39,708 nucleotides of DNA from Spirogloea muscicola (Eukaryota; Streptophyta; Zygnematophyceae; Spirogloeales; Spirogloeaceae): the NCBI GenBank assembly GCA_009602725.1, contig WELB01000001.1:1657556-1697263 (forward strand). Direction: 5' to 3'. The position numbers and the translations under genes were made by a program. The first letter of the stretch is position 1; each line of letters opens with the position of its first letter. The notes beneath the pieces are model-generated. The model was given only the letters and a program-made list of their open reading frames with translations. It was not told the origin of the DNA and did no database searches. Below are positions 1,784 through 26,100 of the stretch, piece after piece.

Positions 1784-4962
<3,179 letters not shown>

Positions 4963-9185: not shown

Positions 9186-10457
9186 AAATCTCTTGCGTGG
9201 AGTATGTAGCGAGCCTATGTATAGAGGACAATGAAGCGCACCAGAACCCGCGGTTTCGCTTGTGCAGCCGCCAGCACGCTCGCTGGCAATGATGCTGGCA
9301 TGACCGCCGCCTCAAAGATAGCCGTTTTGCTCTTGGTAGCCGCTTGGCTGTCGTTTGCCGCCACAGCAGGAGTGGCTGCCAGAGGCGAGCAAGCAGCGCA
9401 GCGTAGCGGGCCTGCACAGGATGCGCCGCAACTGTTGCCGGCGCCGCCCAACACTCGCCTTCCTGGTCATGGACCTCACTGCGTTAAGCGCGCACTGGTT
9501 TCATAGGGATCTATGTTGGCGGCGGCCGCGTGATTCACTTCACGCGCGGGCGGGACCGCGAGCTGGGCACCGGCACGCGCCTGGACGTCATGTTCGCCAG
9601 CTCCGCGCCGCCGGCGGCCGAGAACGCCATGTGCGCCGCCTGTGGCCTGCACGGCCTGAGCCACGGCGTCGTCGACTCCTGCCTCGCCTGCTTCCTCTCC
9701 GGCTGCCCGCTCTACCGCTACGCCTACTCGGCCGACGTCCTCAGCTTCCTGGGCAAGCGCGGCGGCACCTGCTCGCTCACGGCGGCGCACGGTGCGGAGG
9801 CCACCGTGCGCCGCGCGCGCTGCCTCCTCGCCCACGGCTTCGGCGAGTACCAGCTGTTTGACAACAACTGCGAGGACTTTGCCGTCTACTGCAAGACGGA
9901 GCTCCTGGTGCTGCCGGACCGCACGCGGCTCGGCGGCAGCGCCCAGGCGGCGTCCATCATCGGCGCCTTCCACTCTGCGGCGCTGTCCGCGCCCGCCCGC
10001 ATGCTCACCGCCTCTGGCCCCGCCGTGTCGCTCGCCCTCGTCGCCGGCTTCTACTACTGGGGAAGGTCTGCTCTCACCCATACATTTTAACCCATTTTCC
10101 TCCGAGGCTATTGCTGATGCAATGCTATCTGCTTAGAGAATGCAATCCTTAATTTCACACATTGAGGTGGCATATCTCCTGACGGCCAGTTGCTGCTGCC
10201 CCCCACCCGTCTGCCACAGAGTTGCGCACGACATAGGTGTGCGGAAGGATGCTGTGCGGCTGCCGGTGGAGGAGCTGGTCGAGAACCTCAAGCTTGCCCA
10301 GCACTCGGCCCAGGAGGCGGCCGCCCTCCGCGTGGTCGGCACAGCCGCGGCCCTGCTGGCCACCGAGGCTCGCCAGGTGTACCTCCTTGACGCCCCTCCG
10401 GCTTGTCCGCCACATTCCAACAACGTGGATTTGACCACCGAGCTGGCCACTGCATAG
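9052..10457 (+). CDS. NC/LRAT-domain protein (H-box/NlpC-P60 superfamily)
   Basis: Three exons (9052-9145, 9507-10065, 10220-10457) keep phase and give 296 residues. The fold is a circularly permuted NlpC/P60 thiol acyltransferase or hydrolase like LRAT and the plant NC-domain proteins, which act on lipid acyl chains or are of unknown substrate. The catalytic set is intact: first His in GYLYAHHGIYVGGG, second in RVIHF, and the Cys in FDNNCEDFAVYCKTE. The exon 1/2 junction falls inside the HHG motif. A hydrophobic stretch near residues 207-222 (PAVSLALVAGFYYWG) is a likely membrane segment, as in many members. The Cys-rich insert (MCAACGLHGLSHGVVDSCLA) is also typical of plant members. It converges with the amidotransferase fusion gene. 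Real substrate unknown. Confidence 0.85.
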
Positions 10458-10602: not shown

Positions 10603-11329
10603 ATACTTACAACCCAGCAAAGTTGCAGAGTGGACATTTTGGTACCGTGATGCCGCTGACTCTAGCCGGCTGCCATTTTCTTTGTTTGAACAGTAGACCA
10701 TTTTCCAGCTTATTGTTTGGGGTATGTTGCCCCCTGCTTTCACTGGATAAGCAGTAGTGTTAGAGATATTCCTACGAACTGACTATAGAGAGAAGAAATA
10801 TGTTTGCCATGCAGTGATGCATATGCAAATTCCTTCCTAGATCACTTCTTCGTGAACATGATGCACATGTTTTACTGGCAGAGTGTAACAGGTGTTTCAA
10901 CTAACGTTATCAGCTTTTGCATGAGAGCTCATGCAAAAGCTGCACAAGCAGGAGACGGAAGCTACATCAGTTTCATGCATGGTCTTGGTTTCATGCTTCA
11001 GAAGCGTGGCGCAAGGTTCCCGGATGCTAAGTGCAGGCATAGGTATACTCGTTAGGAGGCTGGGGCACGCATTGCATGTGCCAAATTCAGAACAATTTTA
11101 CAGAAGCGGCACAACCAGGCAGCAAAGAGGCTAAGCTTGGAGAATGTCAAGCAAGGTGGATGCTACACCCAGATACACTGAGCTTGTCCGATAAAATGGG
11201 GAAGCCGCTAGGCAGAATGGGGGTGGGTCAGGATGGCTACACCCTCGTCCGAAGCTGCCCTGCCGATGTATGATCGACAAGTTGCTGGTTTGAGGGGCGA
11301 GTTTCATGAAGAATTTGCAACTAGATGCA
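10603..11329. other. Convergent intergenic region with a 32-bp palindrome
   Basis: Lies between the 3' ends of the NC-domain gene and the fusion gene. It contains a palindrome at 10911-10942 with 15-bp perfect arms (CAGCTTTTGCATGAG and its complement) separated by AG. Frames here are below 90 codons and unrecognised. TTACA at about 11098 could be the reversed TGTAA signal of the minus-strand gene. Confidence 0.4.
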
Positions 11330-14300
11330 TCAAGATGTACCTAAAGCATACAAGAGGTCTCTGATGACCTCCTTGCCTCTCACAAAGTTCATCCACCGAA
11401 GCCTCTCGTTCTGCACAAGCAGAGAGAGGTGCACTGAAGCAGGTGAGAAGACAGTAACGGCCCTTGCAGCAGTTCTTAAAACTAACACTAACAATCAACA
11501 GTAGCTACATAGTCGTCCTAATGGTGTTGCGTGGCATAAAGTACATGAGGTGCCGCATGATCAGTCGCTTGACTGATTGGTAGCTGCAGAGCTGGTGCAC
11601 CCAGCACTTTCTCCAAGAATGGCAACACCGGCAAAGTGCCGCCTTCTCTCACATACCTGCAGCAGGACACATGCAAGACCTTGAGACTGCAAGACATGTA
11701 AGGTGTGCTTATCAGATAATTTGGTTGGACGATGGTGTGGATCAACACTTCTCTTGTCATTACCACCGAGTTGGAGCATTGCACAAACTTTCTGTTACTT
11801 GCCAGACTAGCTACTTGTGATACATGTCATACATACAAAATGGTACTATATGTCAAGACCAAAGTGCTAGATAACCAGACCAAGACCAAGTTAACATCTG
11901 CTAGAACCTGTGACAGGTGCAAGACCCAAGGTTACATACATAGGCCGCATCCCCCACTGCTTCTCGATGGCCTTCTCAGCAGTTTTGTAAAAATGACAAT
12001 TAGGATCAGCCAACCACCTGTCAGATTGTGCAAGCGCAGATTTTGTGTCAAGCACGCCAGCACATTCTGCACTTCACATCTCACAAAAAGAGGGTGAGCT
12101 TAACCCCTGCTTCTCCTGAAGGAAGCTTCTAAACTGATGCAAAGTCAATTCTCTTGGAGAGGTATGTTGTGACTAAGACTTGCTCAGTGTATCTGCTTTG
12201 CTGGTGAGTCAAGAAAGTTGCAGCCTAGACACCAACAGAGAAGAACTATCTTCAGCTTCGGACTGAAAAGCCAGATGGGAACTTGCTTTCTAGCTGTAAA
12301 CAATGAGAATGAGCACTACTCCAAGACCAGATTGAACACATCACTCACCAGTCTCCAACGTGAGCGACTCTGACGTTGATCTTGTTGCCAACTGACCGCA
12401 ACTTTGCAAATTCATGACTAATGTGACCTCGGAACTTGTCCACGAGCCTCTCTGGGTTCTGGTCGGGCACATGTCTGATACAGACCTGAAAGCACCACAA
12501 CAAAAGCCTCCAGGCATGAAGGACAGAAGCAAATAGGGCACGCATCTTTCTTTGAGCTCGCGATAAATTTTCACTGCCTGTGCAAATCCTGTGTCACAAG
12601 CATGGCCGTCTAAAGCAGCACTACCAAAAATGATGTCGCTATTCTCCCTTATTGGCAAACATGACTGTGCTTAGGAGGTACCAATCTCCAAAAACCTTGA
12701 CCGAGAGACGCACCCGGGCTGTGCAGCTCCTTGGAATGACCGACCATCCATGTGCAGCTGAATCAATGCCAGTTATGCTGAGTGACGGGTTTCGCCACCT
12801 ATTTAGCAGGACATCTTTCGGAGAGGAGGCTGCTAGAGCTCGTAATCCACTTGCAACCTGCGCTGGCCAGATGCAGGTGCAAGCCAGTGAGACGAGCTTT
12901 CACAAACTGGCCGAGGGAGTGGACTATTCTCACTCCAGCATGAAGCATCTGCTTCAGAATGAGGAAGAGTGTAGGAGTACAACTGCATAGTGTAATTGAC
13001 CTTGTAGTCTTCGACTTGAAAGGACAGCTCCTCATAGAGCGCTGCTTCCTCATCATCTAGAGGCTTTACGTCATCATAGAAGCCTGGAACAAATAAAGCA
13101 CACACTCCACCACTCCGTCATACCAGAAAGAAATTCAAGTGGACCTCGAAAGCATACTGAAAGCAGTATCAAGCAGCATCTGCAGGCACAAAATCACTGC
13201 CTTAGCAAAGCTTCAAAAGGACCATATAAGCACACCTGGAATGAGGATCATATTGTTGGAGTCAACAAGGTGAGAGAGGACAGTCACAAGGTCATTCATG
13301 GGCTCGGAGAAAGCTCCTCCATCTGTGCCAGAATGAAGGTCCTTCGCAGGCCCGTTGACCTCTACTTCGAGGCAGATTAAACCCCTCATGCCATATGTCA
13401 AGCAAGGGTACTCATTGCTGCAGGTTGGGCAAAACATACTTTGAGGATACATAAGTGGCAACACATACTTTGAGACAAGTGGCAGATGAGCCTTTCTGTG
13501 GTGCTCTGTAGTCTGGGTTCCGTAAGCAAGGTCATGCATGACGCATGTTATGCAGCAAGCCACTGCCAGACTTGCGGGTGCTCAAAGATATTACTATCGC
13601 AGATCTGTGCATTTTGAATACTGCTGCAGCACAAAGAGTTACTCACTTGAACCAGGAGCCACTGGCCGACAGGATGAAACCCGTGCCCTCAAACCACTCA
13701 AGGTTAGCTTGCACAGCCTCTCTAAAGCCCTGCACACAAGTGTAGACCAGCCTGTGATGCTGAGCAGCTGGTTCCACCCCAACTAACCTCTGAGTGCAGT
13801 ACAAGGGAACAAGTACAAGTGGGAAACCCAAGAAGACCTTAAGGTGATGGTGCTGTCAAGTTTACGAACATTGATTCTAGTAGTGGCTTCCTTCAACAAG
13901 TACGAGCATGGACAAGGCTGTCATACATATAACCTGGCTAATCTAGACTGTCACCTGCGAGCCGCTTTCCTGCATGCCATCAATGATGAAGATAACATTC
14001 GCCTTCAACTCTCCACTTGTCACTAGCTCCTGAGAAGAGCAGACAGATGATTCATGTCTCTGAAGGATCTACACTGTGAACACGCTTTTGCACATTGATT
14101 CAGCAAGTACCATTGGGCGACAGGCAAGAACTCAAAACCACACACAAATGAGCTCTGCACTGTTGCTCTGCTTATCAATGGAAGCGCGACTAAGAGGACA
14201 GGCCCACGACACTGATAAAACTATCATGAAATGCCAGGTCTTACTTTTACAGCAAAGATGGAAGCAACCAAGGGCCCCTTGCTATCAGAGACCCCTCTTC

Positions 14301-15089
14301 CATGTAAATAGCCATCAATTGCAGTAACATCAAACGGATCTGTGGTCCACTTGTCCTCGGCAACTTCCGCAACATCGTAGTGTCCACAGATGGCTACGGT
14401 CAGCTTGCTTGGATCCTGGCCCCCAGCGCCGCATGCTTGACAAAGGATTACGTATGTTTGGCTGTGAATGCTTGAGCTTGCAATTGTAAGTCAGCAGCCA
14501 AGCAAGACCACATGCAAACAAAAGCTACAGACCGCAGCACAAAGATCGACTTGACTTCTGCCAATGCGAACCTCCTAGACTGACCTGTACAATGCGGCCA
14601 AAGACAACTGGATTGGTATTTTCTACTGTGACCACAAGTTTAGCTTCTGCGCCAAGGTCTTCTAGTAGGCCCATGAGGTACTTTGCCCCCTTCCATGCCT
14701 AGTCAGACAGTACACACAAGCGCAATATGAGCTTCAGCTCATGCATCTCAACATGTGCAACACAATCACTAAAAGTATGTGACGATATCTTGTAGTGTCA
14801 ACTCCATGCCAAGTAAGAGAATCGTAAGCCAGCACCGCAATTTAGTACAAACGGTTGATACATCTGCTGCTGTGAACATGCCTGGCTACACAGCGACAGT
14901 GATGACCTGGGAAGTCACCAGAGCAGTTGCGGAATACATGACTCTGTGTCATGCACATAATATCATGATGATCTATCATACCCGATCTTGAGCAGACTTG
15001 GACTTGTCTGTACTGAATGTGCGGATGCGGACAAACTTTCTCAGCTTCTCCTCCATGAGAGCATGCTCTTCTCGACTCCCACTTGTGCA
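11330..15089 (-). other. M20 (Dug2-like) domain segment of the fusion, degenerate site
   Basis: Exons 10-21 encode a carnosinase/CNDP2-like M20 fold: DPSKLTVAICGHYDV (His924, Asp926), GRGVSDSKGP (Asp956), the dimerisation-domain His in KDLHSGTDGG, RWRNPSLSITGID, YVREGGTLPVLPFLEK, and the final NERLRWMNFVRGKEV. Compared with the family motifs MEESGS, SDNYW and DDGAH (human CNDP2 Glu166/Glu167, Asp195, His445), this protein reads MQESGS, SASGSW and TDHAAPH. The general-base Glu is Gln989, the metal Asp is Ser1017, and the C-terminal metal His is Ala1265. Peptidase activity is therefore unlikely; a scaffold role beside the amidotransferase is my inference. Confidence 0.75.
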
Positions 15090-18000
15090 CTGAGCAGCAA
15101 CAAGTACCCACTATCAGCAAGTCTGATGCAGCCAAATCTGCGAGAATATCAGGTCTATGAGTAGCCTAATAATTGCAATGATGGCCCACCAACAATTATG
15201 CAATGTCCACCCAAACAAGTTGGGGCAGACCTGGGATATTAAAGGCACACACCTAAGTGTTAACACTAGGACTTGGATTGATGACAAACTTACACCTCTC
15301 TGTAAAGTTCAAGTTTCACCAGCTGACAAACAATACCTGGCTACGAATGGTCTTGGGTGTTGGTGGGCCAAGACAAGAAGTGATGTCAGTCACGCCAACC
15401 TCCCAATATCGCACTAACCCGTCGCTGCCAGAGAGGCAGTGCACAGAAACCCATCAAGCCCAATGATGTGGCCGCTAGAGTCTTTTGGGTTACTCTTATG
15501 CTGCATTAAGTGCTAGTCAACAGCAGAAATCTCATTCTCCAAGTGTATTTTCACAACTAACAGCAGACTAGTCAAGTGGCCCATGTAAGTACCTAGAGCC
15601 AGTGAGGACACCATCCGCAGTGCAAGCGATGGAAAGAAAATTGGAGCCCTCGTAGAGAAAAATGCGCAAACATTCATACGTTACCAGGCTCCACATCCTG
15701 CCACAATGGAACTCAGGCTTCTGAGACTGATGCGAAGGACCAACAGCTGTCTGGTGACCTCACTGCAAGTTCCTTAAAAGTATTATGCATTTACATGACT
15801 GAAGGCTTCCTAGTTATATCTTCTGCAGTGCAAGAAAACATAATGCCTAATCGATTTTGGTTTAAGCTTTGGACAGTGTCTTCAATGTCAATTCAGAGGG
15901 AATAGTCAGGGAACCACTTGTGCCAGCTTGCAACGCTCAATCACCACAATCATCAGTGCATCTCGCTGGCCAAATAGAGTAAGCATCACCTTACAGTCTG
16001 GTCCACTGAAGCACTGTAAAACTCATCTCGCGATCCTGAACAGTGCATGAGCGATATGGGACTGGACACTTAATGTGCAATCTGCCTATGCTATGCAATG
16101 CAATTTGTCAACAAGCTTGCAAATAAGCTAAATCAAAGTAGCATCTGAGAGAGATGTAAAGGAGACCACTCTTTCAGGATAGAGGGTGTAAAATATAACA
16201 AAGGAATTTCCAATGTAGGAGAGAAAGACTTGCTGAAATCGGGAAATATCATACACTCACCAATAGCAAGGCCAAGGACGTCATCTGAGTGTCCTGTAAT
16301 AGTAGTGATGCAAGAGAGAGTGGCCAGGTCCCATACTCTGATGGTGTTGTCCCTTGAGCCTGCTCAGACCGAGTAAATGCCTTGAGAATCACAGCTTTGC
16401 ATACCACAATCAAGAATAGAGACATTAGTCAGAAGCGACAATAAGTCACCTTCATCCTGCTTTTGCTACAGTGCAAGGATTGAGACATAGTCAACAATAT
16501 CATTCAAACAATTCTTAACAAATATCCTGACCACTGAGGAGGCGCCCATCGCTTCTCTCGGCTTCCTGGATGGCTGCCAGGGCCATGACACCCCCTTTGT
16601 GACCATGTAATGTAGCAACACAGCAAGCAGTGGCTAAACTCCACACCTGCACATGCAAGTCTTGAATGGAATGAAGAGTGTCCCTCAGCTTAGTCGCTCG
16701 TGACTGGCAATTCTGTACAATGACATGGAGAGCCATTGCTTCAATCGAAGGCATAAGGCAATGCTAGGGATTTGCCCGCATTTTACGCCATGCTGACCTT
16801 GACAAAACCATCGCCAGCCCCACTGCAGAGGAAGGGGTTGCACATCACAAGTGCATACACCCGGCTGCAGTGACCCATCCTCTCAGTGTCAGTCAGAACC
16901 AGCGTCGGCTCTGTGCTTGTACACGACGATTCAGGGAGCCACCGAGGACGTAAAGGAGATGTGCCTGATGACCTCTGCCCTTCACTGTAAGAGGTCAAAG
17001 GCTCTGCAAGTACAAGCTGAGCGCCGGCCTTGTTGAAGAAGGCCTCCCTTTCATGGGGAGGAATGGTCATGGATCCCACCTTCTCTAGTAGAGGGTGGAT
17101 TTTGGCAGAGTTCCATCTTTCCAAATTACCGAGTACAGGCGTCTCTTCGTGTCCATTAGGCAACGCTGTGCTCTCAGCATTGACAGGCAGAACGGGGCTC
17201 ACAAATGTCTTCGACCTCTCAAGCTCCTGATCTGCTTTGACTACCTGTGCATGGCTGTGACTCCCCTGTATCCGACCAATACCACTAGCAGTCTGACTTA
17301 CATTAGTGCTCGACTGAAGCGCGCAGTCCCCATTCTCTCTTGGACTTTTTGCTGCTTCATCTAGCACCTCAGTGGAGTCTCCCTGCAGTGGTGCAGACGA
17401 GCTGGAAGCTCCACTGATTTGGCCAGGTCTGTCAGCCCCTCTGGCGACAACCTCCTTGGTAGTGACGCCCCTGCGATTGCAGCGTATGATGGACGTGCCG
17501 GCTGGGCCAGCCACTGCTCGTCCCTGCGCAAGTGCCAGCGCGAACACGTCCCCGTCCGAGTGCCTGAGGCTTGAGAGCAGCTTGAAGGATGCCATGTCCC
17601 AGATCTTCACGACCCTGGTGCTCGAGCTGTACAGGAGTCCATTGTGGACGTTCAGCGAGAAGATGGTCTGACTATGGCCATTCAGCTCCTTCACGCAGCG
17701 GAACTCCTTGAGGTCGTACAGCCAGATGACGCCTTCCTGTGAGCCCGAGACGACCTTCTTGCCATCGACCGCCAGCGCCAGCACGGGCGATCCATGCCCA
17801 GTCATGGTGTGACGAGGAGAGGTCACGAGAGGCACATCTGCAGGTGGAAGAATTGCCCCAGGCTCCTTCTTAAGTGAGATCTTCAATGAGGTGGAAGAGC
17901 AGCTTGCGAGGGCCTTGAAACTGCGAGATATGTCCCGCTGCACTGCAGGTGGCGCTCCTATTGGTACCAATATGAGGTCGACGAATTCTCCCTTGAAGCG

Positions 18001-19684
18001 AGTCATGACCACCATGGTGTTGCGGGGAACCTGCAAACAACACCACGACAGGATGAGATGAGCAAGAGCTAGCCAGACCAATGGGCAACCTCCAATACTG
18101 TCATGGCTTTGTTGTTGACTGCGTGGTCTCTACCAACTGCAGCTTACGTACCATGCAACTCAGTTGTGGTGGCCTCTAGAGGGACAAGTGGTATGTCTCA
18201 GACCTGTATCCAATCAGCACTCTCATCTGTGAGAGGCTCTGATGCAACGATTCCAAGAAGGCCACGTCGGTCTGAGTATTTTACGAAGTACTCATTGCTC
18301 TTCCTGTTCGCACACTCGAACTTGGAGCCAGAAGCATAATACAAAGAGGCCCCTGGTTCCCCAACAATATTGGTGTAACGGGTTGAGACGACTGTCTTTC
18401 CATCAGAAACGACAAAGTTCAATAGGCTTTCCTCCTGACCAAGGCCAGCCTCTGAACATATGCGATTTATGAGGTCGATTGTCGCGTTCATCTTTGCCAC
18501 CAACTCCTCTGCCAATCGCACATAACGCTGTCAGCCTACAAGCCGAAGCTCTGACTTCGCTCTGACTGCGAGACAGCACAATGTCAACTAGTGAAAGTAA
18601 GAAGAGAAGCAGTACTGGCCTTTTCACACTGCTGCAAATCTGACAAGAAGCTGCTGCGGCTTCTAGATGTCAGACTCTTGCCTGACAGTGTCTAGAGAGC
18701 TCAAACTTCCTCACACCCACTCTGCTGAGAGACACTACTTAAGGAACAATTCACACTTACCAGGTGGGAGCTCAATCATAACATCATCGATGTTGTTGAG
18801 GAAGAGCGCAAAACAGATGCCCGAGTCAGACTCAAAGCTGGGACACTGCTCATAAACATCATCACGGAGTGTATCTAAGAGCCGACGCCGGACGAGGTTG
18901 AAGCCCCCCACACCACCGTTGTGCATCCATAAGTACCTCCCGCAGACAAAGGGCTGCAGCAAACACACTTCTACACGTTAGTACCCTGACAATTTGCTGC
19001 AGTTCCCTGTCCATCTAGGCACACCGTCACGTGGTTATCTTGGGCTAGAACCTGACTTATTTCCATGCAGCACCCACTCTGACAGATAAGTCCTATGCCT
19101 TGAACCTTCAAAGTAGTTGCAGGTACAAACAGCTGGGCTTCTACTTCTGACACATGAACAATGTGCTGCCATGGGCGCATTGCTGCGTGCAACTTCCAAG
19201 CCTGCTTCTACATGCACGCTGTTATTCGTGCACGAAACTCTTGCATAATAGCAGCCCAAGAGAAGGCCCTGAATCAGAGCCCCAAAGGGCTGCGACAAAT
19301 ACACCCCTCCTGACTTGCTCAAGTGCAGCAAGTGGCCAAGCGGCGGGGCCTCACCTGGCAATTGGAGTCGCTTACGGGGATGCCCGGGTAGGCGGCGCGG
19401 ACGTGCGCGAAGATGAGCGGCGAGACGATCTTGTTGGCCAGGCGCTCGAGGTTGCGGTTGTTCCACGCGGGCTGGATGGACGAGAACATGCAGGGCGTTG
19501 GGTCGCCATGCTGCCGCGCCTCGGGCGAGTACCAGCCGATGCCGAAGCCGTCGCCATTGAGGTACCCGTGGCCCGTCAGCCGCTCCTTGGCGTCGTACGA
19601 CTGCCGCGTGAGCGAGCGCGAGGGCTTGGTCACCAGGTCCGCCAACAGGCAGGGCGTGCCGAGATACGCCATGAAGCGGCACAT
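11330..19684 (-). CDS. Dug3-Dug2 fusion: class II amidotransferase + WD40 + M20 domain
   Basis: Predicted glutathione gamma-glutamyl-bond cleaving enzyme, by homology with the yeast Dug2-Dug3 complex, in one polypeptide of 1293 residues. Twenty-one phase-consistent exons: 19355-19684, 18761-18953, 18204-18508, 16798-18030, 16532-16646, 16261-16359, 15990-16035, 15593-15697, 15337-15424, 14982-15089, 14585-14698, 14245-14415, 13955-14029, 13647-13729, 13236-13417, 13001-13083, 12714-12857, 12349-12485, 11940-12017, 11545-11656, 11330-11410. Residues 1 to about 320 are a class II GATase: nucleophile Cys2 (MCRFMAYLG), GDGFGIGWY, FAHVRAA, YLWMHNGG, ending ADWIQ/VPRNTMVV. WD40 repeats follow at about 345-480 and 660-838 (VKIWDM, RVWDL, RMWSL, RYWEV) around a low-complexity linker. 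Residues 839-1293 are an M20 domain with GHYD and GRGVSDSKGP, but with active-site losses (Q989, S1017, A1265). Shares its upstream region with GrpE. Domain identity is firm; substrate is inferred. Confidence 0.88.
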
Positions 19685-20406
19685 GGCGGCGGCGGGCCCG
19701 TCGCGGGCCCCGCGGCCGCGGAGGATTCGCCCGGCGCCCCGTCAGAGCTCGGCGCGTAGCTCCACGGCGATCTCATGTGCGGCTGCGGGGGCCAGCGCAG
19801 GCGCCCCCGGTGGCGGCTGCTGGCCAGGATCGCTGGGGCCACAATATGGAAGCCGGAGGGCCGTCCCGAGTCCGTCAGCTTGGCGCCGCTCAGCCAGCGC
19901 CGTCGCCGAGAGCCTCAGCTGCGGAGGGCCGCGGGCGCCGCGCCCGCGCAGCCAGGGCCGCCGCCGTCTCCGCCGCGGCAGCTGCAATGCCCCGGCGCCA
20001 TGGANCGTCGTCACGGAGTCTAACGTAACCGGCTAGTCACCGTTGGCCCCCGGTCCCTGTCGGACGCCGCCGTGGCGCCGAGTCGTGGCAGCGCCAGGTC
20101 CGACGTGGCGTCCCACGTGGAGTCTACGTGGAGGTCTAGAACCCCCTCAAAACCCCCCCACGCTACCGCTCCATGCACCAGCCCGAGCTGCCACACAGCT
20201 CCTGGAGAAGCTCGCGGCCCCCTCCCTCCAGCTCGCGCTCTGGGCGCCCACCAGACGCCATCGCCCCGGGGCAAGCCCCTCTGCTCTGCGCTCCAGCTGC
20301 CGCTCGCCCACGTCTCGGCGCACCAGCGCGGCTCCACTCGGCTCGCTGCCTCCGCAGTCTCTGAGCCCACGTCGGAGCCGCCGCCGGCGTTGCCACAGTG
20401 GTCGCC
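19685..20406. promoter_or_regulatory. Bidirectional promoter between fusion gene and GrpE, with G-box
   Basis: A 722-bp divergent intergenic region between start codons at 19684 (minus) and 20407 (plus). It is GC-rich and carries a CACGTG G-box at 20114-20119 flanked by two further ACGT cores (about 20103 and 20126), typical bZIP/bHLH targets in plants and algae. I saw no clear heat-shock element or TATA box. A single N at 20005 marks unresolved sequence. Long open frames here (for example near 19413-20036 plus) are GC-driven and overlap the first fusion exon antisense. Confidence 0.5.
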
Positions 20407-23105: not shown

Positions 23106-26100
23106 TCAAGCCAATTTGCATTTCTGCCAGATGCAGAAATCCTGCCCTGATGCCGCGACCTCCCACTCAGGACCTGCATAGGCTTGCAGAAGATGAGCTA
23201 CAGTCTGGCTTAATCAAAGGCAATGCATGTGCATCCTAGCTTTAAGGACGTTACTCAAGTTCGCATACTTTTAACAGCAGAGGATCTCACAATAGGTGCT
23301 TTAAGTGTATCAGTATTCTTCTACCTGGTTCTGTTCCACGCATATCAAATGAAGGCCCAATCTTCACAATGACACCCTGAAAGGCATCCTGCTTGTTGAC
23401 ATTGTCTCCAACTCTAGCAACATAAAGGTCTGGATGACACGTCAATATCTTCACTCCACTTCGTGCATGAAGCTTGTTACGATGCCTGATCTGAACGAGT
23501 GGCACAATCTCGTCCTGCAAGCAAGCAGAAGGTCTGGGTTAGCAGACAAATAATGTAATGTTGTACAATAAGACATGACAGAAAATACGAACGTTGCATG
23601 CCAATAAGCAGCTGCCTAACAAGTCATGCTATTTTCTGTCATGTTATGCCACAATGTGCCACAAGAGCCATGACTGACCTTCAACTTCCAGTCATACAAG
23701 TGATCCCAAAACACACAGGGGGTGCCTGGGTGCGTGAGAATGTATGCATACCTGCATTACAGATGATTTGTGGTCAGCGAAGCAGCACTGACATGAACAG
23801 TGACTTACTTCTACAGTATTTTCGAGATTCAATAAATTTAACGGATTTCATAGTTAAGCACAAAGAATGACAAAACCTGGCACAATTGTTTCGAAGTCTA
23901 CTTGGATGTGCTAATACAACAGCAGTGTAATTGCAGAGAGTGATGCTATTCAGTACAAGTCCTTGATCTTGTAATGCGACTCTTGCGCAAACAGCAGCAC
24001 GACAGTGTGGGGCACCATTTGCTGCTAGTAGTGCATGCTACAGACTGGCAAGACATGCCTCCCACTGACAGCCAAAGGATACCTCAAGAACCTCAACAAA
24101 TTACCCTCTCATCACGCCCCATGCAGGGAAGGGCCAATGTTGTGGTACTGATCCAGTGGAGTGGTTGTCAACAAAGGTCACAGCCTGCAGTGGGCCAATG
24201 CATAAGTCCCAGCTGAGAGCAGCTGTATCTCAGACTGGGACCCTGCAGATGTTGAGCTCCTTCCAGGTCTGTCTGGTAGAAGACAGACCTTGCCAGGCCA
24301 CCACCCTATAACACCAGGAGGTCGCCCTTTGGGATCAATCAACCTCCAGTACTCGCAGCGATCCACAGCTTGCTGCAGTATACCCTGGGGCAATACAGAT
24401 ACCTGTCTGATGTGAGCTCAACATAATCAAAACTCCAATGAGCCCGCTCAAGACCAGCCCTTTCATGCCTTTTTGACACAAGTGCGAGCAGACCTTGGTA
24501 GTGTAGTCAAAAACTGAAGCTGTGCCTCTTGTAGCCTTCACCCAATTGCAAAGTTCCTGCCTATGTTGATCTGCAGGCCAACATTGCAAATCTACATCAG
24601 GGTCACATCATGTGACTGGAGCTGCTGCTGTAAAGACCTTTCAGATTTCATCTTCTCTCTTCAGTGTCCTCCCACACTTTTGGGTCGGTGACTGATATAT
24701 CAATCAGTTAATGTGCTTAAGTTTTTGCAGGTGTGTCAGATCTGACCTTGGTCATACTCTAGTTGGGGACCATTGTACCGCATGTTATTCCACACATCTC
24801 CCAAGGCGTACGCTGGAGAAGTTGCTTGACAATACCTACAGGGGTTGCCACAGATTCCAAAATTCACACAATAACTCAATTTCAGATCCCTGCTTATGAG
24901 ACGTAATCAGATTGTGCCATTTAGCTGTTAGACATGGCTGTCGGTGCTTGTCAGCTCTGAGAGCCACAAAGGAAGCCTGCTAAATGCTAACGTCTGTGCA
25001 ATCTGCCTCCAATACCAGCGCAGGCAACGGGCTTGGTTGCAATCGGTCTCACATGTACACAGCAATTGGATCAAAGGCCTTGGCCAAATCAAAGCACCAT
25101 GCCTGCCAGATTGTGACATTGAGGTTTGTCAGACAAGGGGATCAGCACTTGAGGCTTTCGCTTTTGTAGTGATAGATGCCATTGATGCACAAAATCATGG
25201 ATGCAGCTATATTGCCAACAATGAGGTACTGCTTGCAAGCCCTTACATCAAAACCCACAGTCTTCCTCAGCCACGCGAGCCAGCCGCTAGCATCACTGTG
25301 AACGATGGGATCAGAATGATCTATCACAGTGTGCGTCCCAAAGGCCTCTCCTTGCTTATCCTCCAAGGTCTCAGGCGGCTTGCCACTACCTTGTAAGCAG
25401 GATTCCCAGTCGAAGTTCTGACCAGGCAAATGCAACGGAGAGTCCTCATAAGGCAGGTCAGTATGATTGCACCTTGTAGAGTCCGATGAGAAGAGACTCT
25501 CCAAAACGATCTGTGTATGTTGAGCTGGTGAAGCTTGGCTTACCTCGTCCCATGTGTGTGCAGCTTGTTTCCATATCAGGTGGTCATCTGGTAGTTGGTT
25601 GTTATGTCTGTTTATAACAAGTTCTACACATGCTCGGACCCGTTGTTTGTGTAACTTGGAAAGGAGGGACCTCAGGTGCTCTTCTGATCCATAAGCAGTA
25701 TTGAGATCATAATATTTGGTTGGTGCAAAACCTGCACATAGCTGTCCTTTGAGAATGACACGAAGTCATGCAATGCATTCTGAGAAGGCAGTAGGCAAGC
25801 ATGTCCGTTAGAGGCAAACAAGCAAGACGAGGACCCACCCTGAGTATCCGAGGAGACACAGCATGGGGGAAGGATGAAATCAGTGAAGCCACAAGCAGCC
25901 AGATCGTCCACTGCATCCTCCAGGACCTGAGGACGGGGCGAGCAGATCACATCACATCAGATCACCTGCTTTGAGCAGATGCAAGCCAAGGTGTAAAGCA
26001 GCATGGTCAAGAGAGCAATCCTGGCACTCACAGCGTAGAAGCTCTTCCCGTGATGGTTGTGTATGCTGGAAGCCCAAGAGAAAGTTTGCAGCAGGCAGAC

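Follow-up and report, generated by a model that had tools for sequence, protein, structure and literature searches.

A single gene of the green alga Spirogloea muscicola joins GATase, WD40 and M20 domains and may encode a one-chain DUG-type glutathione amidase

Does a green alga make in one polypeptide the glutathione-cleaving enzyme that fungi assemble from two? The question is raised by a gene on the minus strand of a stretch of 39,708 nucleotides from Spirogloea muscicola (assembly GCA_009602725.1, contig WELB01000001.1, positions 1,657,556 to 1,697,263), hereafter called the window, whose product begins with a class II glutamine amidotransferase (GATase) domain and continues with WD40 repeats and an M20 peptidase-like domain. 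The fungal protein Dug2 consists of WD40 plus M20. In yeast, Dug2p and Dug3p are joined in a cytoplasmic complex converting glutathione to glutamate and Cys-Gly (PMC7617739, PMC6508711, PMC13398684). This (Dug2p-Dug3p)2 complex is described as being made of two different proteins (PMC7617739) and the DUG route as fungal (PMC9012958, PMC6508711), while for plants two routes of glutathione breakdown are described, one by cytosolic ChaC cyclotransferases and one by GGT in apoplast and vacuole (PMC8464934). As set out below, the fusion gene exists, and we think it probable that its product is a one-chain counterpart of the fungal (Dug2p-Dug3p)2 glutathione amidase, in which the GATase would be catalytic and the M20 domain a dimerising scaffold.

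The exon model was built by hand on the minus strand of positions 10800-20300 from reading frames, GT-AG sites and homology patterns, the junctions proposed by a first-pass annotation of the window being known beforehand. The rebuilt gene runs from 19684 to 11330 and consists of 21 exons with 3882 coding bases, encoding 1293 residues and closed by a single terminal stop. All 20 introns are of the GT-AG type and the phases are kept. The first-pass annotation had read 21 exons in phase from Met-Cys to the stop; our model agrees with this, including the junctions at 18204, 16798, 15337 and 14982. Its observation that the GATase motif VPRNTMVV (aa, i.e. amino acids, 277-284) and the first WD40 repeats lie together in one open exon (18030-16798) was reproduced as well. 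The gene starts with ATG-TGC at 19684 and its stop codon ends at 11330. An in-frame stop located 19-21 codons 5′ of the ATG, which is present in this gene and in the two further copies described below, supports the Met-Cys start. The domain search that had been proposed for the 1293-residue model yielded GATase_4, WD40, Peptidase_M20 and M20_dimer, each scoring above its cut-off, the N-terminus being assigned to GATase_4. Thus, a single-gene fusion in the order GATase-WD40-M20, which leaves Cys2 at the N-terminus, was confirmed as read from genomic DNA.

The genome of the alga (153 Mb, 471 contigs) was also searched with the fusion protein, and 36 of 90 first-look candidates were scored. All 51 matches obtained fell at three loci, the window (C1) and two further places on C64 and C10. 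The copies on C64 and C10 match the window copy in the length of each of the 21 exons, contain 1293 codons and exhibit neither a frame break nor an internal stop. Their exons are 0.91-0.99 identical to those of the window copy, the introns 0.76-0.97 (three aligned regions). Not a single indel event was found in the exons in any of the three pairwise comparisons (3882 bases), while the introns disclosed 77, 77 and 80 events (4279-4398 aligned bases). The only change at a splice site affects one out of 60 donors, GC replacing GT at intron 1 of the C64 copy (L003). All three copies found are fused. A locus with an unfused GATase or WD40-M20 part was not found in the genome by this search, which may miss weak exon matches and scored 36 of the 90 candidates. 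A genome-wide Pfam search for GATase_4 gave no match despite the presence of the gene, a limit of searching exon by exon.

Over approximately 615 aligned bases that precede the start codon (window 19685-20300), the copies are 94-96% identical, while the introns are about 83-84% identical. As the upstream identity lies above the intron level, this stretch likely contains a conserved promoter or 5′ leader.

Regarding the N-terminal part, GATase_6 was matched besides GATase_4, just under its cut-off (26.0 versus 27 bits). The nearest PDB sequence was 3mdn (E-value 2.4e-32), followed by EgtC. Cys2, Arg96, Asn122-Gly123 and Asp153, which on the basis of the GATase II literature we take to be the catalytic residues, line up in all six full-length bacterial rows of the alignment; the seventh row, the fragment L008, has gaps at Arg96 and Asp153 and a doubtful Cys. 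The features that mark a Dug3 protein, a GATase II domain starting with Met-Cys and the catalytic Cys, Arg, Asn-Gly and Asp, are therefore present, and so is the Dug2 feature of WD40 repeats followed by M20.

The M20 part has a lidded M20 fold like CN2 dipeptidase, yeast DUG1 and carnosinase (2zof, 4ruh, 4g1p, 3dlj; E-values 1.1e-70 to 1.2e-84). Nearest among the PDB sequences was CN2 (2zof, 1.2e-84), yeast DUG1 (4g1p) giving 7.2e-78, and the best NCBIfam match was the PRK08201 dipeptidase model with 216.1 bits, below its cut-off of 441. The alignment of this part comprised the three algal copies and all 27 bacterial matches from a sample of one phylum; the roles of the residues at the M20 centre, catalytic Glu and metal ligands, are presumably those given in the M20 literature. 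It revealed an altered catalytic centre, which the first-pass annotation had not remarked on. The catalytic Glu, which is E in every M20 relative examined, is replaced by Gln989, and Ser1017 and Ala1265 stand in place of a metal-binding Asp and His, so that all three copies lack the catalytic Glu of an active M20 metallopeptidase and have an incomplete set of its metal ligands. Unlike the fusion, CN2, DUG1 and carnosinase carry Glu, Asp and His at these positions. Other residues of the centre, His924, Asp926, Asp956, Glu990 and His1050, are kept. The metal Glu adjoining the catalytic position is shared by the alga and 27/27 bacterial relatives; the first metal His and the bridging Asp are H and D in the alga and in 21 of the 27.

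By eye, seven WD40 blades were counted, the third of which is degenerate and followed by an insert. To compare the parts of the protein, the ratio of nonsynonymous to synonymous substitution rates (dN/dS) was determined by the method of Nei and Gojobori over the three pairs of copies. It amounted to 0.087-0.110 for the whole protein, 0.010-0.027 for the GATase (aa 1-300) and 0.020-0.027 for the M20 part (aa 851-1293). Blades 1-3 gave 0.032-0.174 and blades 4-7 0.099-0.111, whereas the values for the insert (aa 481-665, window 16864-17418) were 0.414-0.468, about 17 to 42 times those obtained for the end domains when the same pairs are compared. Hence, the two end domains are under strong and about equal purifying selection, while the insert is loose. 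The features of the gene are compiled in Table 1.

Table 1. Features of the fusion gene, given in window positions and with the basis of each assignment
Feature	Position	Strand	Basis or remark
Whole coding span	11330..19684	-	21 exons, 1293-residue GATase-WD40-M20 protein; two further copies with identical exon lengths and no exon indels
Class II glutamine amidotransferase domain, aa 1-301 (exons 1-3 and start of exon 4)	17956..19684	-	Pfam GATase_4 45.3 bits (cut-off 23); PDB 3mdn, E-value 2.4e-32
Cys2 codon, predicted N-terminal nucleophile after removal of Met	19679..19681	-	Cys in 7/7 bacterial rows, that of fragment L008 doubtful
Exon 4, aa 277-687: GATase end, linker, WD40 blades 1-3, insert, first part of blade 4	16798..18030	-	Uninterrupted; equal length in 3/3 copies
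WD40 blades 1-3 (blade 3 degenerate), aa 351-480	17419..17808	-	Pfam WD40-type models; blade count and limits by eye
Fast-evolving insert in the propeller, about aa 481-661 (about 180 residues)	16876..17418	-	dN/dS; limits by eye
WD40 blades 4-7, aa 662-820 (exons 4-9)	15391..16875	-	Pfam WD40; blade count and limits by eye
M20 peptidase-like domain and M20_dimer lid, aa 851-1293 (exons 10-21)	11333..15053	-	Pfam Peptidase_M20 67.6 bits, M20_dimer 37.1 bits; PDB 2zof, E-value 1.2e-84
Gln989 at the catalytic Glu position	13970..13972	-	E in 27/27 bacterial relatives and the four displayed PDB alignments; Q in 3/3 algal copies
Ser1017 at a metal-binding Asp position	13661..13663	-	D in 26/27 (A in L033) and the four displayed PDB alignments; S in 3/3 algal copies
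Ala1265 at a metal-binding His position	11551..11553	-	H in 21/27 (the other 6 rows stop short of this column) and the four displayed PDB alignments; A in 3/3 algal copies

A one-chain DUG-type amidase is the reading most likely to account for these data, as it is backed by the one-gene fusion, the kept GATase centre, the altered M20 centre under selection and the closeness of the M20 part to CN2 and yeast DUG1 among the PDB sequences. According to the mechanism we propose, the GATase would use Cys2 as nucleophile to cleave the gamma-glutamyl bond in glutathione or in gamma-glutamyl peptides related to it, releasing glutamate and Cys-Gly. The WD40 propeller would hold the GATase to the M20 body, to which it is here covalently joined. 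The M20 domain, having lost the catalytic base and two metal ligands, would most likely act as a dimerising and substrate-orienting scaffold, and its lid may pair the single polypeptide into a homodimer, replacing the two-by-two arrangement. Hydrolysis of Cys-Gly would be left to a separate peptidase. Work by Kaur in 2012 is said to have found Dug2p without peptidase activity, its WD40 part being reportedly the one that binds Dug3p and its M20 part the one that dimerises.

The algal protein contains the same domain types as the yeast complex, GATase as in Dug3 and WD40 and M20 as in Dug2, but is one polypeptide from a green-lineage genome; the two separate, assembling polypeptides of (Dug2p-Dug3p)2 are not found here. 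Since there is one gene with one frame, the fusion may work like this complex but is not that complex. Its M20 centre is altered, which may be a further difference. On the wider claim, that the green lineage possesses, in the form of one covalent enzyme, a third glutathione-degrading route hitherto described as fungal, with a catalytically dead peptidase kept under tight selection as a dimer scaffold, we regard the chances as even.

Several points speak against a one-chain DUG-type amidase. Glutathione as the substrate, and the activity itself, are what we infer from genomic DNA. Orthology to fungal Dug2 and Dug3 is putative, being based on domain architecture. Given matches to GGT in three places of the genome and to ChaC in two (the first part of the domain only), the alga could strictly do without another glutathione route. 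For the second step, no close DUG1-like paralogue was found in the genome with the M20 part at E-values up to 1; other M20 genes exist, 22 of the 25 Pfam M20 matches falling outside the three fusion copies. In addition, changes at the M20 centre are not unique to the fusion, since six of the 27 bacterial relatives (L027-L032) differ there in another way; they have kept the catalytic Glu and the metal Asp but carry Met, Asn and Leu/Ile at the first metal His, the bridging Asp and the lid His. Finally, His1263, which in all three copies lies two residues from Ala1265, might still serve as a ligand.

Among the alternatives, an amidase or transferase acting on gamma-glutamyl dipeptides or conjugates, with glutathione merely a minor substrate, is unlikely but survives best. 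The yeast Dug2p-Dug3p enzyme also cleaves gamma-Glu-Met (PMC7617739) and accepts valine and Val-Gly as recipients in gamma-glutamyl transfer (PMC6508711). On the other hand, sequence evidence for a different pocket was neither sought nor found, and the kept GATase catalytic residues fit either substrate.

EgtC performs gamma-glutamyl amide chemistry, too. That the GATase is an EgtC-like gamma-glutamyl hydrolase of ergothioneine synthesis, to which the WD40 and M20 parts lend an accessory scaffold, appears slightly less probable still. Like EgtC (4zfj, 4zfk, 4zfl; TIGR03442), the fusion has a domain of the GATase superfamily with N-terminal Cys, and EgtC was the only NCBIfam family matched by this part at E-values up to 0.001. 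Moreover, exons of PF10017 (EgtD-type) occur in three places of the genome, at one of which, the locus examined, an FGE-sulfatase match (EgtB-type) lies on the same strand. Taken together, the family match and the ergothioneine-type genes leave some room for an EgtC-like substrate. However, both scores obtained, 169.0 and 174.4 bits, are under the curated cut-off of 218.65, so that membership in the EgtC family was rejected; the one Marinimicrobia relative scored gave 199, likewise below. EgtC is a stand-alone protein, whereas the fusion to WD40-M20 points to Dug2. Fungal fused EgtD-EgtB enzymes use cysteine and need no EgtC, which we also counted against this alternative.

It is very improbable that the M20 domain has retained metallopeptidase activity and splits Cys-Gly, so that one chain would carry out both steps. 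The five kept residues of the centre, the strong conservation of the domain, the lack of a close DUG1-like paralogue and the position of His1263 near the lost His would agree with such an activity, but with the catalytic Glu changed to Gln and two metal ligands to Ser and Ala in every copy, an active M20 peptidase was rejected.

The sequence TGTAA, a green-algal polyadenylation motif, was looked for as a sign of genes ending early. It occurs seven times in each copy of the gene; one place (exon 7) is common to all three copies and three places (introns 9, 12 and 20) are common to two. Least probable of all is an artefact of gene modelling or assembly that has merged two or three neighbouring genes: although the model derives from genomic DNA and intron 9 at the WD40-M20 join, which has a TGTAA in two of the three copies, might conceal the end of a gene, the GATase-WD40 join sits inside exon 4 and needs no splicing, three contigs agree exon by exon without exon indels, on which ground an assembly chimera was rejected, and the ordinary length of intron 9 (247 bases, the other introns having 134-401) gives separate genes at this join no support.

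Relatives of the two end domains were also sought outside the alga. Bacterial class II GATases of Marinimicrobia (L005-L007, and L039 of G082) are 38-41% identical to nearly the whole GATase and have the catalytic residues in common with it, but unlike the fusion they stand alone; among the neighbours of L005 and L007, read by eye, there was no M20 gene. Within the GTDB genomes, three Marinimicrobia loci contain a full-length stand-alone GATase with 38-40% identity, and one more locus gave a match of 40 residues. At the thresholds used, 4 of 148 sampled genomes of one bacterial phylum had a GATase match and 24 an M20 match, and none of the 148 had both. GATase matches were found in 34 plasmid records, of which two neighbourhoods were examined and contained no annotated M20 gene. 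Viral contigs yielded no relative of the GATase or the WD40-M20 part, and the PDB sequences listed for the GATase (4) and M20 (22) parts did not include a structure of Dug2 or Dug3.

The first-pass annotation had considered a one-polypeptide glutathione-degrading enzyme in a green alga to be apparently undescribed. As regards the architecture, a search of literature listings gave no description of a GATase-WD40-M20 fusion or a green-algal DUG route, although the architecture may sit unremarked in eukaryote sequence databases, which lay outside that search. Three papers on domain fusions, searched by term, did not mention the fusion either, and nothing on it is contained in passages of PMC12653102 and PMC3731230 or in a reference-list entry of PMC10853773. 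Euglena contigs have been reported as degradosome orthologues on the basis of BLAST (PMC6351624). The claim does not hold for glutathione cleavage by one chain as such, since GGT and ChaC are known single-chain enzymes; what would be new is a one-chain amidase of the DUG type. If the preferred reading is true, a DUG-type enzyme adds a third glutathione route in a green alga, the view of where the DUG pathway arose changes, and the fusion supplies in one chain what fungi must assemble. Being a natural fusion, it would also lock the complex into a 1:1 stoichiometry, and structural and kinetic studies would have one chain in which to follow how GATase, WD40 propeller and altered M20 domain cooperate.

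Some observations concern the genome at large. At one locus (L046; G000 C3:195600-205400, minus strand), a histidine methyltransferase match (95.4 bits) and an FGE-sulfatase match (84.7 bits) lie on the same strand; it is a probable EgtD-EgtB (Egt1-type) ergothioneine locus, judging from these domains. Intron-split RbcS, taken as nuclear, was found at four places, which fits a green-lineage alga. Several genes, namely the fusion gene, GGT and PF10017, occur in three diverged places, but RbcS occurs in four and ChaC in two. The synonymous divergence (dS) between the coding sequences of the fusion-gene copies, 0.165-0.183, suggests three subgenomes in this genome. Elsewhere in the window, an open frame at 25142-25765 (minus strand) bears a weak resemblance to alpha-amylase (16.2 bits, below the cut-off of 22), and another at 9488-10090 (plus strand) encodes an LRAT-type acyltransferase domain (59.8 bits).

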